64,000 nucleotides of DNA, taken from positions 1 through 64,000 of the forward strand of contig JAOZHT010000001.1 in NCBI GenBank assembly GCA_026014735.1. The letters are read 5' to 3'. The translations under genes were made by a program, and so were the position numbers. The stretch's first letter is position 1, and each line of letters begins with the position of its first letter. The notes beneath the pieces are model-generated. The model was not told the origin of the DNA. It did not search any database and was given only the letters and a program-made list of their open reading frames with translations. Shown here one piece after another: positions 717 to 14,646 of the stretch. This DNA is from Candidatus Bathyarchaeota archaeon (lineage in GTDB: Archaea > Thermoproteota > Bathyarchaeia > Bathyarchaeales > Bathycorpusculaceae).

Positions 717-780
717 TTTATATAAGGGGAGGGAGAGGCTGGTGGAGCAGCAGACGTTTGCGATATGTCTTTAATATATA
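717..780 (+). promoter_or_regulatory. Two TATA-like boxes in the long upstream gap
   Basis: A TATA-like sequence with a G-rich tail lies at about 718-735, and a second (TTAATATATA) at 771-780. The second is about 25 bases before 801, where similarity to the element at 8190-8318 begins, so it may start a transcript there. This is inferred from base composition and spacing only. Confidence 0.35.
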
Positions 781-800
781 GGATTGAAATGTTGTCTGTT

Positions 801-928
801 CTGCTTGTGGCGGGCTCCACAACCAGCCTGCAATATGCCAAAGCGCCCAAAGCAAAAACGGGTTGTTTTACTCAATCCGTAGGTTGTTGTTGTGTAAAGA
901 GGGGTCCCCCACAACAACTATAGAAAAA
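801..928 (+). ncRNA. Candidate structured RNA / repeated element, copy A
   Basis: This non-coding stretch matches the reverse strand of 8190-8318. Both copies begin CTGCTTGTGGC and carry CACAAC a few bases later. In both, a GTTGTTG...CAACAAC hairpin begins exactly 80 bases after the first motif. Both end CAACAACTA followed by AG and a run of A. In copy A the stem is 886-894 paired with 910-918 around a G-run/C-run loop. The element lies between the surface-protein end and the hydrolase gene. A TATA-like box ends at 780, close to the expected distance. The RNA family is not recognised. Confidence 0.45.
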
Positions 929-1064
929 AAGCAAACACAGATTTTTGGTGTACCGGCAGCTGCCCCTGCTGGAATTGGGTTGCCGCAGCATCGAATAATG
1001 CTCCCCGCTTGGTTTGCGATACTTCTTTTAAACCAAACCTGCATACTAGAGGTGAGGAACCAAT

Positions 1065-7648: not shown

Positions 7649-8125
7649 ATGTTTATCGCGCCTTTTGTTCCCAGCCCCAGCAGCGTGGTTGAGTATATGC
7701 TTAAGCTTGCCGGCTTGAAGTCAGGCGAGGTACTTTTTGATATGGGTTCAGGTGATGGCCGAACCGTGATTATGGCAGCTAAAACCTTTGGCGCCCGGGG
7801 CGTAGGGATCGAGTTACGTGAGGATTTAGCTAAAAAAGCCATGAGTAACATCCATGAGAGCGGACTTGAGGGCCGCGTGACAATCATAAACGACGACATG
7901 TTCAACGTGAATTTAACCAGCGCCGACGTGGTTTACCTGTACTTGACCACCAGCGCCAACGAGAAAATCAAACCTAAACTTGACCGGGACCTAAAACCTG
8001 GCGCCCGCGTGGTCTCCCATGACTACGAAGTGGTTGGGTGGCGGCCCGAGAAAATCGAGAACTTCTGTGAAAACCCCCAGTTGGGCTACCCCTCACATAC
8101 GATTTATCTGTACCGCAAACCCTGA
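7649..8125 (+). CDS. aKMT-like protein-lysine methyltransferase
   Basis: The protein is about 158 residues with a class I SAM-binding motif FDMGSGDGRTV. The overall pattern closely matches crenarchaeal aKMT4: a Pro-rich FVPSP N-terminus, VGIELRED, LTTSANEKIKPKLDRDLKPG, VVSHDYEVVGW and a YLYRKP end. That enzyme is a broad-specificity, SAM-dependent methyltransferase acting on surface lysines of cytosolic and chromatin proteins. The ATG at 7649 fits the family length. A GTG at 7637 in frame would add four residues. Function is assigned by recognition of this pattern, not by alignment. Confidence 0.82.
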   Translation: MFIAPFVPSPSSVVEYMLKLAGLKSGEVLFDMGSGDGRTVIMAAKTFGARGVGIELREDLAKKAMSNIHESGLEGRVTIINDDMFNVNLTSADVVYLYLTTSANEKIKPKLDRDLKPGARVVSHDYEVVGWRPEKIENFCENPQLGYPSHTIYLYRKP

Positions 8126-8189
8126 GTTTTGCTGGTGCTCACAGCAGACCTCCCTCCCCCTATTTAATAAGGAATCAAGACGGTCGGGT

Positions 8190-8318
8190 CCATTTTTTCT
8201 TAGTTGTTGCTTGGCAAGGCGCCTTTACACAACAACCTGTGGCGTTTGTGGGCGGCTGCTTTTCTGTTTTAGATTGTTTAGGCGGTTGCTGGCGAGTTGT
8301 GCAATATGCCACAAGCAG
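8190..8318 (-). ncRNA. Candidate structured RNA / repeated element, copy B
   Basis: This is the reverse-strand counterpart of 801-928. The shared start motif CTGCTTGTGGC is at 8318-8308 on the minus strand. The hairpin GTTGTTG/CAACAAC is formed by bases 8203-8209 and 8230-8236. Its loop contains the 10-base palindrome AAGGCGCCTT (8216-8225). A TTATAA box on the minus strand at about 8421-8426 could drive a transcript covering it. The 333-base gap 8126-8458 that holds it contains no convincing gene. Confidence 0.45.
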
Positions 8319-8458
8319 AGCCCCCGGGATTTTGATCCGCTCTGTCAGGGTGATTTGCCGCGGCTTGTGCCAATTGGCCTCACAGTAGAAGCATCAAAAT
8401 CCTTTGGTGCCCAACAACAATTATAAGCTGGCGGCTCGTCAACAGAAAAGCGGTTTAA

Positions 8459-8956
8459 ATGCAGTTTGTTCCATGGCAAAATGTGGCGGATTGGCGATGC
8501 AGAGGCTGCGGGTACTGCTGTAAACTCTACAGCGTCGTCTTGGGTTTTACCGAGTGGCTGCATCTCACCAAGACCTTCGGGGCAGAAACCACCGAGGCGG
8601 GGCTAAACCGCTTCTTCATCAAACGCTGCAGTGATGGTAGCTGCGCTTTTCTCTGTAGCAGCAACCGCAACTACTTCTGTGGGCTGCAAAGCATGAAGCC
8701 TCAGGCCTGCAAAATCTGGCCGTTTAAGGTGCTGGCGGAACCCAAATACGGCGAGGAAAAACAAGCCGCGTACCTGTACCGGGGCAGCACAATCTATGTT
8801 TACGTTGATACCATGTGTAACGGGTTGCGTTATGGGGCGCCGACCTGGGAGTTTGAGCGTGTGGTTGTGCGGGAGTTTGCGGAGTTATCGCTTGGGCTGC
8901 GGCAGGTGCAGGTTAATTCCACTAGGAGCCCGCCTGCGGAGTGGCGAAGGATTTAG
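8459..8956 (+). CDS. YkgJ-type cysteine-cluster protein
   Basis: The 165-residue protein begins with the CRGCGYCCKLYSVVL cluster (about 14-28). It carries further cysteines in CAFLCS and YFCGLQSMKPQACKIWPF, the pattern of the YkgJ / CxxCxxCC putative zinc- or iron-sulfur-binding family. The biochemical role of the family is unsettled. A second, more divergent member is encoded at 32109. The ATG directly follows a TTTAAAT sequence. No ribosome-binding site is evident. Confidence 0.8.
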   Translation: MQFVPWQNVADWRCRGCGYCCKLYSVVLGFTEWLHLTKTFGAETTEAGLNRFFIKRCSDGSCAFLCSSNRNYFCGLQSMKPQACKIWPFKVLAEPKYGEEKQAAYLYRGSTIYVYVDTMCNGLRYGAPTWEFERVVVREFAELSLGLRQVQVNSTRSPPAEWRRI

Positions 8957-9066: not shown

Positions 9067-12000
9067 ATGGTGTGTTCAGATATGAGGCTAACAAAAACTT
9101 TAACTTCGATAGTAATTGCAGCATTAATCTTATCCTGTTTCATAACTTTATACAAAGCCGAGCCTGCCACGGCCGTATCATCAAATGGCACGATAAACTT
9201 TAACGTAAGCGGCTTAGCGGCTGGCACAAGCTGGACCGTGCAAGTGCAAACTACCAATCATACCCAAACCAGCAGCACCTACTCCACATCTTGGATCGAA
9301 GGAGTGCCCTGTCCATGGATTGTCTATGTGCCTGCCGGATACACTTCATCATCCACCCTATCCGGAACCGCATACGTAGCAGCGTACGGAACAACAAACA
9401 TAAACGTGGCCTTCACGGCTATACCCGGTGCCTACGATGTGGTTTTTACCCAAACCGGTTTAGCCTCAGGCACACGCTGGAGCGTAACCCTCAACGGCAA
9501 CACACAAACATCAACCACCGACACTGTCACATTCAGTGGCGTGTCCGATGGTTCATACAGCTACTTTGTCAATGCCCCCGGAGGATACAATGCCTCAGTA
9601 ACCTTTGGCGCCATCACTGTGGATGGAGAAAACGTGGAGCAGTCAGTGCTGTTTACTTCTCAATCTGACAGCTGGAGTATGTTTGGGAATGGTCCAGCCC
9701 GCACTGCAAGCTCCACCTCGATTGGTCCCCTGACGAACTCTTTGGCGTGGTCAAAGTCTACCGGACAATTCGGAGAATACTACCTTGATTTTTCGCCTGC
9801 TGTGGTTGTGGGTGATGTTTTCTACATATGCTCAGGACATTACGTCTATGCTCTTAACGCATTCACTGGAGACCTGATTAATACATACGATTTGGGATCA
9901 ACTTATAATGATGATTCCGGACCCGCTATGGTGGAGGATATTTTATACTTCGGTTCATCAGGCGGGAACGTTACTGCGTTAAATATTACTTCAGGCGACA
10001 TCGTTTGGACCTATACAACTGGTTCATACATAACAGGGTCCCCGGTAGTAGCAAACGGAGTCCTCTACATAGGTTCATATGATGATAAACTGTACGCGCT
10101 AAATGCAACCAACGGCAACCTGGTCTGGTCATATAATACTGGCGCAGACGTGTGGACTTCACCAGCCGTCTCTAACGGGCTTGTCCTAGTCTACTCCAAT
10201 GGGAAACTGTATGCAATAAACGCGCAGACGGGCAGCCAAGCGTGGAACTATTCCGTGGCAAGTGCTCAATATTATAACGATGCACCAGTTGTCCAAGATG
10301 GCATAGTTTATGGGTGCCTATTCCAAGGCTCTGGTGCCGGCGCCTTCTTTGCTTTAAACGTCACTAGTGGCGCAGAAATTTGGTCTTACAGCGCGTATTC
10401 TTTCGGTGGAGCCGCTGTAGCTAACGGCGTTGTTTACTTTAACGACGGTGATGATGGTTACCTGCGTGCTCTGAACGCCACTACAGGCGTCGGAATTTGG
10501 TCAAGGGACCTATCGCTGTATGATCAGGGCCCAATGGTTTCAGGTGACGTAGTGTATGTGGTGTCCTATAATGGAATTTATGCCTTGAATGCGACAACTG
10601 GCAACACCATCTGGTCTTATTCGTTTTATAATTACATGGGTTCGGACTCAGGTACGCCTATTATCGCTAACGGTATAGTTTACGTTTTCGTACCCGGCGA
10701 TATGATGATGTTTGAGGAGGAAGGTACAATATACGCCTTCGGAAACCCTGAGCAATACACGTTAAACATGACAACTGTGGGTCAGGGCACCGTTGAACCA
10801 GGAAACCAAACTTACAATGCAGGAAGCACCGTTAACTTGGTCGCTATCCCCGATGCAGGCTGGAGCTTTAGCGGCTGGAGCGGCGACGCATCAGGCACAA
10901 CCAACACAACCCTCAGCATGGACGGCAACAAAACTGTAACCGCCACCTTCACCCAAGACATCTACGCCTTAACCATGCTTACAGTAGGCAACGGCCAAGT
11001 CAACCCCGGAAACACCTCTGCTACCTACCGATACGGCGACACAGTAGATATCAAAGCAATCAACGATGCAGGCTGGTCTTTTAGCGGTTGGAGCGGTGAT
11101 GCCTCTGGAACAAGTAACACAACCCTGATGATGGATGGCAACTTAACGGTTACTGCAACCTTCACTCTTATCCCAACCTACGATGTAACCTTCACGTGCA
11201 CTGGTTTAGCTTTGGGCACAAGCTGGAATGTAACCCTTGACGGAAGCACCCAGACCTCAACCGCTGCCTCCATAACCTTCACGGGGCTCCTCAGCGGCAA
11301 CTACGCCTACACGATAGGTGCGGTAGCTGATTATACTCTGCAATCTCTCTCATCAACAGGAACATTACCGGTAAATACGGACCTGGACATACCCTTAGCG
11401 TTTACTTATAATCTGGACTGGCCTATGTTTGGATACGACTTGGCACGTTGTGGTTCATCCCCCGTTAATGGACCCGCCACCAACTATACAAAATGGATCT
11501 ATACGACTGGCGGCGTGATAAGTTCGTCTCCATCAATTTATGGGGGCGTGGTCTACGTGGGGTCAAACGATGGTTACCTGTATGCATTCAATGAATCCGA
11601 CGGCAACATCCTTTGGACCTACAAAGTCAGCGGTATAATTCAGTCAAGCTCCGCTGTAGCTAACGGTGTCGTGTACATTGGCTCCTCCGAAAGCATCCTG
11701 TATGCCTTAAACGCCTCAACGGGCACCAGCATATGGAACTTCACAGCAGGCAACGTCATCTATTCTTCTCCAGCGGTTGCTAACGGCATTGTCTATGTAG
11801 GCTGTTACGATAAGAACCTCTACGCGATCAATGCCTCAACCGGCGCGTTAGTTTGGAGCTACACCACAGGCGGCCCCATAGACCTCTCTTCTCCCGCCAT
11901 AGTAAACGGCGTCGTTTTCATAGGCTCAACAGACAGCAAGCTTTACGCAATTAATGCTTCGACCGGTGCTAAACTGTGGAGCAGCGATCTTGGTGGGGCA

Positions 12001-14646
12001 ATATATTCGACTCCTGCGGTAGCCAACGGTTTAGTCTTTGTAGGTACAGAAGGCAGTAAAATATACGCTTTGAATGCAACTACAGGCGATGAATGCTGGC
12101 AACTCTCGACAGGCGGCGCAGTTTACTGTTCCGCCGCGGTTGACAACGGAGTAGTCTATATTGGCTCTTATGACAAAAAGATGTATGCACTCAACGCTTC
12201 CACTGGAGCAGAAATCTGGAGCTTTACTGTGGACGGCTACATTTTAGCTAAACCCTCAATTGCCAGCGGCGTCATATACTTCGGATCCTTTGACGGACAG
12301 CTCTACGCCTTAAACGCAACCGACGGGGAAGCAATCTGGAGCTACCAAACCGATGCAATCTATGTGTCCCCCGCAGTCACAGATGGTTCACTATATGTGG
12401 GTTCATCCAACAACAACATAATTGCTTTCTCTGCTCCTCAAGTGATAACCTTAACCATGAACACGGTTGGTCACGGCACAGTGCAGCCGGGCAACGGAAC
12501 CCAACTGTACGGTTCAACAATAGACCTGCAAGCTATCCCCGATGAGGGCTGGAGCTTTGCTGGTTGGAGCGGCGATGCCTCTGGAACAAGTAACACAACC
12601 CTAATGATGGATGGCAACAAGACAATCACAGCCACATTCAGCAAAGACGTATGCATCTTAACCATGATAACCAAGGGCAAGGGCAGCGTGCTCCCCGGCA
12701 ACGTATCTTACCTCTACGGTGACTCAGTTGACCTCAAAGCCATCGCTGATGCAGGCTGGAGCTTTGCTAACTGGACCGGCAGTGCTTCGGGTACATCCAA
12801 CACCACCATTACGATGACGGGTAACTTTACGGTCACTGCAACCTTCACCCAGGACACCTACACCTTAACCATCATCACGGTGGGTCAGGGCAGCGTCACC
12901 AATGCCAACACAACCTTCCTTTCAGGCACCACTGTTGACCTCTCCGCCACAGGCAGTACTGGCTGGCACTTTGCCAACTGGACCGGCGATCTCTCTGGGT
13001 CAGTTAATCCGAGTAGCATCTTGATGGATGGCGACAAAACTGTCGTTGCAAGCTTTGCTAAAGATGTCTGTATCTTAACGATGGTTACGGTTGGCAGCGG
13101 CAGTGTTCTTCCAGGAAACGTCACTTATCTGTATGGTGACTCTGTTGATTTGAAAGCCATAAACAATGCAGGCTGGACTTTCGCTAACTGGACGGGCAGC
13201 GCATCGGGTACATCCAACACCACCCTAACCATGACTGGCAACTTGACGGTAACCGCGACCTTCACACAGAACATCTACACCTTAACCATCATAACCGTGG
13301 GACAGGGCACCGTTACCCCCGGCAACAGCAGCTACCTCTCAGGCGCAACCGTGGACCTTAAAGCCTTCAACGCAGCCCACTGGACATTCGCGAATTGGAC
13401 AGGCGGCGCATCGGGCACATCCAACACAACCATAACCCTCAACGGAGACATGACCATAACCGCTACCTTCACAAAGATAACCTACGTCGTTAACTTCGCT
13501 GCCTCTGGCGCCAGCTCGGATTACGTGGAAAGCATCCTGATTGTGGACGGCACCGAATACCCGCTCAGCGCGCTTCCGCTGTCCTTCACCTGGGACTCAG
13601 GCTCAACCCACACCTACAGCTACGCCTCATTGCTGAGCGTAAACAGCGGTAAACGCTACGCTTGGGCATCAGCTAGTGGGCTATCAACCTTGCAGGGCGG
13701 CACCTTAACCGTGTCAGGCGAAGGCACCGTCACAGCCAACTATGGCACCCAGTATCTGCTGGTGGTAAGCACCCCGTATGGTTCAGCAAGCGGCAGCGGC
13801 TGGTACAGCTCAGGCTCCTCTGCGTCGGCAAGCATCAGCGGCTCCACCTATGGCTCAGGCGACACGCGCCAGGTCTTCACGGGCTGGAGCAACGGGCAAA
13901 CCGGCACCAGCTTCTCGGTGACGATGGATTCCGCCAAGTCAGTGCGTGCTAACTGGGCAACCCAGTATCTGGTAACCCTCACAGCTAACCCAACTGAAGC
14001 CGGCTCCACTACGCCCCAAACCATCTGGGCATCTGCAGGAACAATCAGCATCTCTGCATCGGCAAACAGCGGCTACAGGTTTGCTTCCTGGACAGTAGAG
14101 GGCTCAGCCACCATAGCCTCCGCCTACGCTAACAGCACCTCCGCAGCCATCTCTGGCCCCGCAAACATAACCGCGAACTTTAACAGCGGCAGCCTCATCG
14201 CAACCGTAACTACCAGCGGCGAAACCTACGATGTTACCCTCAGCGGCGACATAGCGTCAAACCAGATGTCCAACATAACCATCACTCCGCATCAATCAAA
14301 GAACACCACCACCGTGGGATTCACTGTAACCGGCGAATCCGGCACCTCTGGCACAGGCAACTTGACGCTTTCCAAGAGCGCCATACCCTACGGCACCACC
14401 CCGCTGGTCTATGTGGACGGCGTCTTGGTTGAGGAGCAAGGCTACACCGAGGACGCAGACAACTACTACATCTGGTACACCGTGCACTTCAGCAGCCACG
14501 AGATGACCATAGAGTTCACGTCAACTCAGAATGCACCTGACCAGGGCTTAGGCGTCTGGCTTGGAGTCGGCGCAGCAGCTCTGCTGTTTGCTGTGCTGCT
14601 GGTGTTGATTGTGCTCTTTAAGCGCAGCAAACCAAAACGGGCATAG
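9067..14646 (+). CDS. Giant secreted protein with two PQQ-like beta-propellers and InlB-like repeats
   Basis: The 1859-residue protein has an N-terminal signal peptide (a hydrophobic stretch after MRLTKTLTS) and beta-rich domains to about residue 200. A first PQQ-like propeller spans about 204-558, with repeated YALNATTG-type blades. Two InlB-like repeats and a short beta domain follow. A second propeller occupies about 784-1124. At least five InlB-like repeats (GTV-P-GN, DLKA, GWSF-x-NW, T-x-TATFT) follow to about 1475, then further beta domains. It ends in one membrane helix and a KRSKPKRA tail, so it is displayed outside the cell. The propellers lack visible dehydrogenase cofactor residues; a binding or scaffold role is inferred. 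A second in-frame ATG at 9082 is an equally good start. Confidence 0.9.
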   Translation: MVCSDMRLTKTLTSIVIAALILSCFITLYKAEPATAVSSNGTINFNVSGLAAGTSWTVQVQTTNHTQTSSTYSTSWIEGVPCPWIVYVPAGYTSSSTLSGTAYVAAYGTTNINVAFTAIPGAYDVVFTQTGLASGTRWSVTLNGNTQTSTTDTVTFSGVSDGSYSYFVNAPGGYNASVTFGAITVDGENVEQSVLFTSQSDSWSMFGNGPARTASSTSIGPLTNSLAWSKSTGQFGEYYLDFSPAVVVGDVFYICSGHYVYALNAFTGDLINTYDLGSTYNDDSGPAMVEDILYFGSSGGNVTALNITSGDIVWTYTTGSYITGSPVVANGVLYIGSYDDKLYALNATNGNLVWSYNTGADVWTSPAVSNGLVLVYSNGKLYAINAQTGSQAWNYSVASAQYYNDAPVVQDGIVYGCLFQGSGAGAFFALNVTSGAEIWSYSAYSFGGAAVANGVVYFNDGDDGYLRALNATTGVGIWSRDLSLYDQGPMVSGDVVYVVSYNGIYALNATTGNTIWSYSFYNYMGSDSGTPIIANGIVYVFVPGDMMMFEEEGTIYAFGNPEQYTLNMTTVGQGTVEPGNQTYNAGSTVNLVAIPDAGWSFSGWSGDASGTTNTTLSMDGNKTVTATFTQDIYALTMLTVGNGQVNPGNTSATYRYGDTVDIKAINDAGWSFSGWSGDASGTSNTTLMMDGNLTVTATFTLIPTYDVTFTCTGLALGTSWNVTLDGSTQTSTAASITFTGLLSGNYAYTIGAVADYTLQSLSSTGTLPVNTDLDIPLAFTYNLDWPMFGYDLARCGSSPVNGPATNYTKWIYTTGGVISSSPSIYGGVVYVGSNDGYLYAFNESDGNILWTYKVSGIIQSSSAVANGVVYIGSSESILYALNASTGTSIWNFTAGNVIYSSPAVANGIVYVGCYDKNLYAINASTGALVWSYTTGGPIDLSSPAIVNGVVFIGSTDSKLYAINASTGAKLWSSDLGGAIYSTPAVANGLVFVGTEGSKIYALNATTGDECWQLSTGGAVYCSAAVDNGVVYIGSYDKKMYALNASTGAEIWSFTVDGYILAKPSIASGVIYFGSFDGQLYALNATDGEAIWSYQTDAIYVSPAVTDGSLYVGSSNNNIIAFSAPQVITLTMNTVGHGTVQPGNGTQLYGSTIDLQAIPDEGWSFAGWSGDASGTSNTTLMMDGNKTITATFSKDVCILTMITKGKGSVLPGNVSYLYGDSVDLKAIADAGWSFANWTGSASGTSNTTITMTGNFTVTATFTQDTYTLTIITVGQGSVTNANTTFLSGTTVDLSATGSTGWHFANWTGDLSGSVNPSSILMDGDKTVVASFAKDVCILTMVTVGSGSVLPGNVTYLYGDSVDLKAINNAGWTFANWTGSASGTSNTTLTMTGNLTVTATFTQNIYTLTIITVGQGTVTPGNSSYLSGATVDLKAFNAAHWTFANWTGGASGTSNTTITLNGDMTITATFTKITYVVNFAASGASSDYVESILIVDGTEYPLSALPLSFTWDSGSTHTYSYASLLSVNSGKRYAWASASGLSTLQGGTLTVSGEGTVTANYGTQYLLVVSTPYGSASGSGWYSSGSSASASISGSTYGSGDTRQVFTGWSNGQTGTSFSVTMDSAKSVRANWATQYLVTLTANPTEAGSTTPQTIWASAGTISISASANSGYRFASWTVEGSATIASAYANSTSAAISGPANITANFNSGSLIATVTTSGETYDVTLSGDIASNQMSNITITPHQSKNTTTVGFTVTGESGTSGTGNLTLSKSAIPYGTTPLVYVDGVLVEEQGYTEDADNYYIWYTVHFSSHEMTIEFTSTQNAPDQGLGVWLGVGAAALLFAVLLVLIVLFKRSKPKRA

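Follow-up and report, generated by a model that had tools for sequence, protein, structure and literature searches.

Two intergenic gaps of the window (the whole stretch of 64,000 nucleotides that was analysed, from a Candidatus Bathyarchaeota archaeon) carry copies of a dispersed non-coding repeat, R1. We read R1, with a probability of roughly 0.7, as the cargo core of an old MITE family that was mobilised by an ISH3-like transposase, targeted to a second repeat (R2), and orphaned in the window genome while its core was kept, possibly as a transcribed module. In the scheme that we propose, the full element would consist of a core of ~131-135 nt between terminal inverted repeats (TIRs), [T/A]CAGTAGATCAAA ... 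TTTGATCTACTG[A/T], with TA on both sides. For its movement it would depend on an ISH3-like DDE transposase acting in trans on the same TIRs, and its preferred insertion site would be the TATA box of R2. In the window genome the transposase would have disappeared beyond detection and the TIRs would have decayed, leaving orphaned copies. The core would have been kept through transcription of the R1 plus strand from upstream R2 TATA boxes, and the transcript would end in a hairpin with a role at the RNA level; these last two steps are the least certain. The features of the window on which the following sections draw are:

717-756, plus strand: R2 half upstream of copy A, matching the R2 family, with TATA box TTTATATAA (717-725), G-run and GGAGCAGCAGACG
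771-780, plus strand: second TATA-like stretch of R2, TTAATATATA, from its position the apparent insertion site of copy A
777-791, plus strand: probable decayed left TIR of copy A, recognised by eye, its spacing from the core being as expected (TATAGGATTGAAATG versus TATCAGTAGATCAAA)
797-931, plus strand: R1 core copy A, a conserved non-coding repeat of ~135 nt (profile match of 114.9 bits)
884-918, plus strand: 3' hairpin of copy A, with arms at 884-892 (TTGTTGTTG) and 910-918 (CACAACAAC region) and a G/C-rich loop
943-957, plus strand: possible decayed right TIR of copy A, recognised by eye at the expected distance (versus TTTGATCTACTGATA, ~5 mismatches), weak when taken alone
8137-8170, minus strand: R2 remnant in direct orientation, reading TTATTAAATAGGGGGAGGGAGG on the minus strand and lying 25 nt downstream of copy B
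8194-8321, minus strand: R1 core copy B (profile match of 63 bits)

A multi-copy repeat family

The first-pass annotation had described bases 801-928 (plus) and 8318-8190 (minus) as two related elements with a series of common motifs, and every listed motif was found at the position claimed for it: CTGCTTGTGGC begins at 801 (+) and 8318 (-), AGGTTGTTG is located at 881 and 8238, which confirms the spacing of 80 bases past CTGCTTGTGGC in both copies, and both have CAACAACTA with (T)AG and a run of A behind it. When the two gaps were aligned locally, the best score was 41, a value that none of the 500 Markov-shuffled pairs attained (mean 19, maximum 30). The intergenic location was likewise confirmed (gaps 617-1065 and 8125-8459). 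The extent of 801-928 had been put in the right place but slightly too short, as the unit spans about 797-931 and in the column statistics of 40 copies its boundaries fall sharply at 797/798 and ~931. We built a sequence-only profile from 39 copies, both window copies among them, and within the window it matches exactly twice, at 797-929 (+, 114.9 bits) and at 8194-8321 (-, 63 bits). Copy B represents a divergent subfamily, similar to the copies at L041:2790-2922, L053 and L054. Downstream of copy B there is an ORF of 1859 aa (9067-14646) with repeated segments, which judged by eye probably encodes a surface protein.

Instead of a pair, we directly observed a family. The window genome (2.9 Mb) holds about 41 copies by BLAST and ~54 by the profile (E<1e-6), and alignment of the copies sharply delimits a core of ~131-135 nt, which has TGTTCTG on its 5' side and CTATAGAAAAA on its 3' side. 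The absence of further copies, which had been named as evidence against a common element, is thus clearly not what was found, R1 being multi-copy in the window genome and in its relatives. The copies are mostly intergenic, with an ORF (>=110 aa) overlapping 7 of 42, as compared to 84% of random positions. Multiple copies were found in seven genomes of the same genus (G018, G029, G014, G024, G009, G011 and G013) and in one of another genus (G072); G018 has 112 matches and the other seven carry 15-41 copies each. R1 is rare in six more genomes, and it was not detected in 66 others by a search whose filters lose weak matches. In a pattern scan of the sequence collection the matching named records belong exclusively to Candidatus Bathyarchaeota, and there are no matches among the viral contigs. 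Some copies stand in close same-orientation tandem, ~160-290 bp apart, as at L041:2501-2922; close tandems in G018 are found at C3:17107-17424, C17:20967-21257 and C23:113630-113956.

Inverted repeats, partner transposase and insertion target

Some R1 copies are accompanied by flanking inverted repeats (left TATCAGTAGATCAAA, right TTTGATCTACTGATA). In G018 we observed these TIRs directly: a 15-bp TIR pattern occurs at 84 sites, often paired, versus 2 for the reversed pattern, and the 55 R1 copies within 795 kb have both TIRs (13 copies), one TIR (9) or none (33). Element-like TIR pairs, irrespective of their core, number 29, and TA is present on both sides of 24 of these; the 13-bp TIR pattern used here excludes the outer TA, so that the TA flanks were scored independently. 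The TIRs enclose three kinds of cargo in G018: the R1 core (elements of 165-190 bp), a different core (elements of 260-284 bp) and a transposase gene (element of ~1.1 kb). The element of the last kind, L188:855-1973, is intact, has R1-type TIRs and encodes a DDE transposase of 347 aa. The best family for this protein is ISH3 (NF033541, 173.8 bits, nearly the whole profile covered), and because this falls short of the 225 bits of the curated cut-off for ISH3, we name it ISH3-like only. An IS630/Tc1-type partner, a candidate that was prompted by the TA flanks, was rejected, as DDE_3 is absent apart from one match in G024. The second non-autonomous family (260-284 bp; L190-L194, L202, L203, L205, L206) has the same TIRs and 19 matches in 795 kb of G018; a common origin with R1 was not retained, the similarity being weak (E 0.035). 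The first-pass annotation had mentioned a decayed mobile element as a possibility, and in essence this was right: in the relatives the R1 core sits between TIRs that are common to an ISH3-like transposase element, and some copies in the window genome are still flanked by remnants of these TIRs, with the spacing as expected.

R2, the second dispersed repeat, is made up of promoter-like half units (TATA box, G-run, GAGCAACAAACG or similar) and looks like a repeated promoter or operator, a reading taken from its sequence. The half units stand in tandem, and >40 copies are present in the window genome; loci include L056-L075 and, on G018 contigs, L346-L385. The halves are separated by a palindrome, GGATACGNNNTCGTATGCG, in G018. 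An insert of ~144 bp, R3, separates the R2 halves at L072:799-1037 and L073:799-1036 (89% identical), and part of it recurs upstream of an R1 copy in L044.

The preference for R2 as insertion site was observed directly. The R2 G-run is found directly outside exactly one TIR in 20 of the 29 G018 elements (random rate 0.3%) and the sequence on the opposite side resembles the upstream portion of the TATA box of R2; the simplest reading is that the elements would have inserted at the TA of that box. The R2 pieces that adjoin R1 in the window genome are direct in 14 cases and inverted in 1; copy A has a direct R2 piece at -78. In G018, R2 TATA boxes located 55-76 nt upstream of R1 are on the same strand in 12 cases and on the opposite strand in 0, which fits transcription in the R1 plus direction. 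R1 is itself similar to an R2 half in its 3' part, with 0.4% of shuffles matching as well. Between R2 and R1 a stretch of ~20 nt is variable, and a guide-RNA-like role for it was considered but not adopted.

The same data could be read the other way around, with R1 primarily consisting of multi-copy small RNA genes that have their own R2 TATA promoters, some of which were later captured between TIRs. The 12-to-0 strand bias at a narrow upstream distance and the majority of full-length cores without TIRs suit this reading, which we nevertheless consider unlikely. The conserved R2 neighbourhood could stem from the insertion target alone, and R2 is also targeted by TIR elements with a quite different core, so that proximity to R2 need not indicate a promoter; moreover, it would be uncommon for one genome to have >50 related RNA genes. 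The 33 of 55 G018 copies without a recognisable TIR, though their core is full length, do count against spread as a MITE only, and because of them the core may also have spread by another route, with the TIR form being one vehicle.

Retention of the core and its 3' hairpin

An ISH3-like transposase was not found in the window genome, and this lack of a detectable enzyme is a direct observation. A TIR remnant, defined as at most 4 mismatches at the expected distance, was seen on the left side of 7 and on the right side of 10 of the 42 window-genome copies (shuffled flanks 0.5% and 1.1%), and only two copies kept traces of both; the left TIR of copy A is too decayed to enter these counts. Since so few remnants are left, most TIRs of the window genome must have been lost, and we infer that its R1 copies are orphans.

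The core did not follow its ends. Substitution steps, counted on a tree, are distributed unevenly over its columns, with a variance/mean of 4.4 in the window genome and 5.5 in the other genomes, and 41 of the 129 columns have <=1 step versus 4.9 expected; subfamily structure could still inflate this unevenness. Steps per codon position are nearly the same (5.9/5.6/6.0 and 14.0/11.7/15.1), without a third-position excess. The kept length and the uneven substitutions without codon periodicity point to constraint on the core as a nucleic acid, and it thus appears to be under constraint.

These observations bear on a plain neutral MITE without function, for which the conservation pattern would reflect the amplification of a few masters. 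The MITE anatomy and the partner transposase in G018 are what such a family would have, and species-specific sequence signatures are indeed present among the R1 copies. It would, however, leave unexplained why TIRs decayed in the window genome and the core stayed intact, and per-column substitutions so far from Poisson. The core diversity is old as well (mean pairwise identity 73% within the window genome and 65% within G018), and some copies occupy orthologous places in other species. At site A this is the case in G018 (same orientation), at site B in G029, where R1 lies in the same orientation beside the orthologous methyltransferase gene, and orthologous places were also found for L042 and L123; L021/L119/L012 have the gap in common but R1 in opposite orientations and were left out of the count. 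The nearest relatives reach an identity of at most ~79% in the genes that were compared, too low for orthologous empty sites to be shown. On balance we think that a purely neutral family is improbable.

A protein-coding fragment (frame ..LLVA.CTTSLQ...AGCCCV*) was rejected as highly improbable: the frame is open in many copies and terminates at the hairpin, but its third positions show no excess of change, many copies have premature stops and no conserved start was seen. The statement that the two copies have no protein frame in common was therefore correct in effect, as the one frame that is open in many copies is equally variable at its third codon positions.

Selection on RNA structure, which had been proposed from the two copies, held up in part. 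RNAalifold found no consensus structure across the 39 copies, and an Rfam scan of the window yielded two tRNAs only, with R1 lacking a match at gathering score. Copy A folds better than its shuffles (z -2.9) and copy B does not (z +0.6). What stood is the 3' hairpin, by column-pair statistics the only part of the core with linked changes between its arms. Two arm types occur, GGTTGTTGTTG/CAACAAC versus GGAAGAWGATG/CATCTTC (table 87, 2, 7, 12), and their linkage has a Fisher p of 1e-9, uncorrected for shared descent, and a permutation p among deviant arms of 0.012. A non-standard arm is present in 21 classified copies and is unmatched in 9 of these; in six G018 copies the 5' arm is of type II and the 3' arm of type I. 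We regard the support for linked change as moderate.

The linked arms and the strong non-coding constraint also speak for the small RNA genes discussed above; the lack of an Rfam match and of a consensus fold, and the shuffle-like fold of copy B, speak against them. For the core of the orphaned MITE that we prefer, a transcribed RNA that ends in a hairpin is the most likely reading, one that we hold with low to moderate confidence. Further-reaching and rather doubtful is the idea of a new class of archaeal mobile small RNA, promoter-linked, hairpin-ending, ~130 nt long and present in dozens of copies per genome. An ISH3-like transposase would have carried it into promoter repeats, and selection would have kept it after that transposase was lost.

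Comparison with known systems

Archaeal MITEs are little studied (PMC10969869), and in the literature searched we found no MITE described for Bathyarchaeota. The R1 elements agree with MITEs in that they are small (165-190 bp, below ~600 bp), lack a coding signal and are dispersed in many copies (G018 has 112 matches, and the window genome about 54 copies). In G018 their ends carry TIRs (both in 13 of 55 copies; remnants only in the window genome) that are common to the autonomous element L188:855-1973, and TA is present on both sides of 24 of 29 TIR pairs, a target site duplication as read from the flanks. Like prokaryotic MITEs (PMC10969869), R1 is short, non-coding, multi-copy and intergenic, with TIRs in common with a transposase element and TA flanks, and two cores use the same TIRs in G018. 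It departs from these MITEs (PMC10969869) in that the window genome has conserved the core and not the TIRs, and in that the elements strongly favour the TATA box of a different repeat family as their insertion site. The ISH3 insertion sequences resemble the partner in that its transposase fits NF033541 and its element is ~1.1 kb long with TIRs; they differ in that the partner scores below the curated cut-off and R1 itself encodes nothing, having only the TIRs in common. The Correia elements of Neisseria and other MITEs that act on transcripts or promoters (PMC10969869) are, like R1, intergenic MITE-type repeats with a hairpin-forming part; their sequence is unrelated and the likeness is by analogy only. 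With its dozens of copies, its preference for the R2 TATA box and a core that appears to have outlived both TIRs and transposase, R1 offers a testable case of transposon cargo that may have become a non-coding module and been retained as such, in a lineage that is widespread and hardly cultivated.
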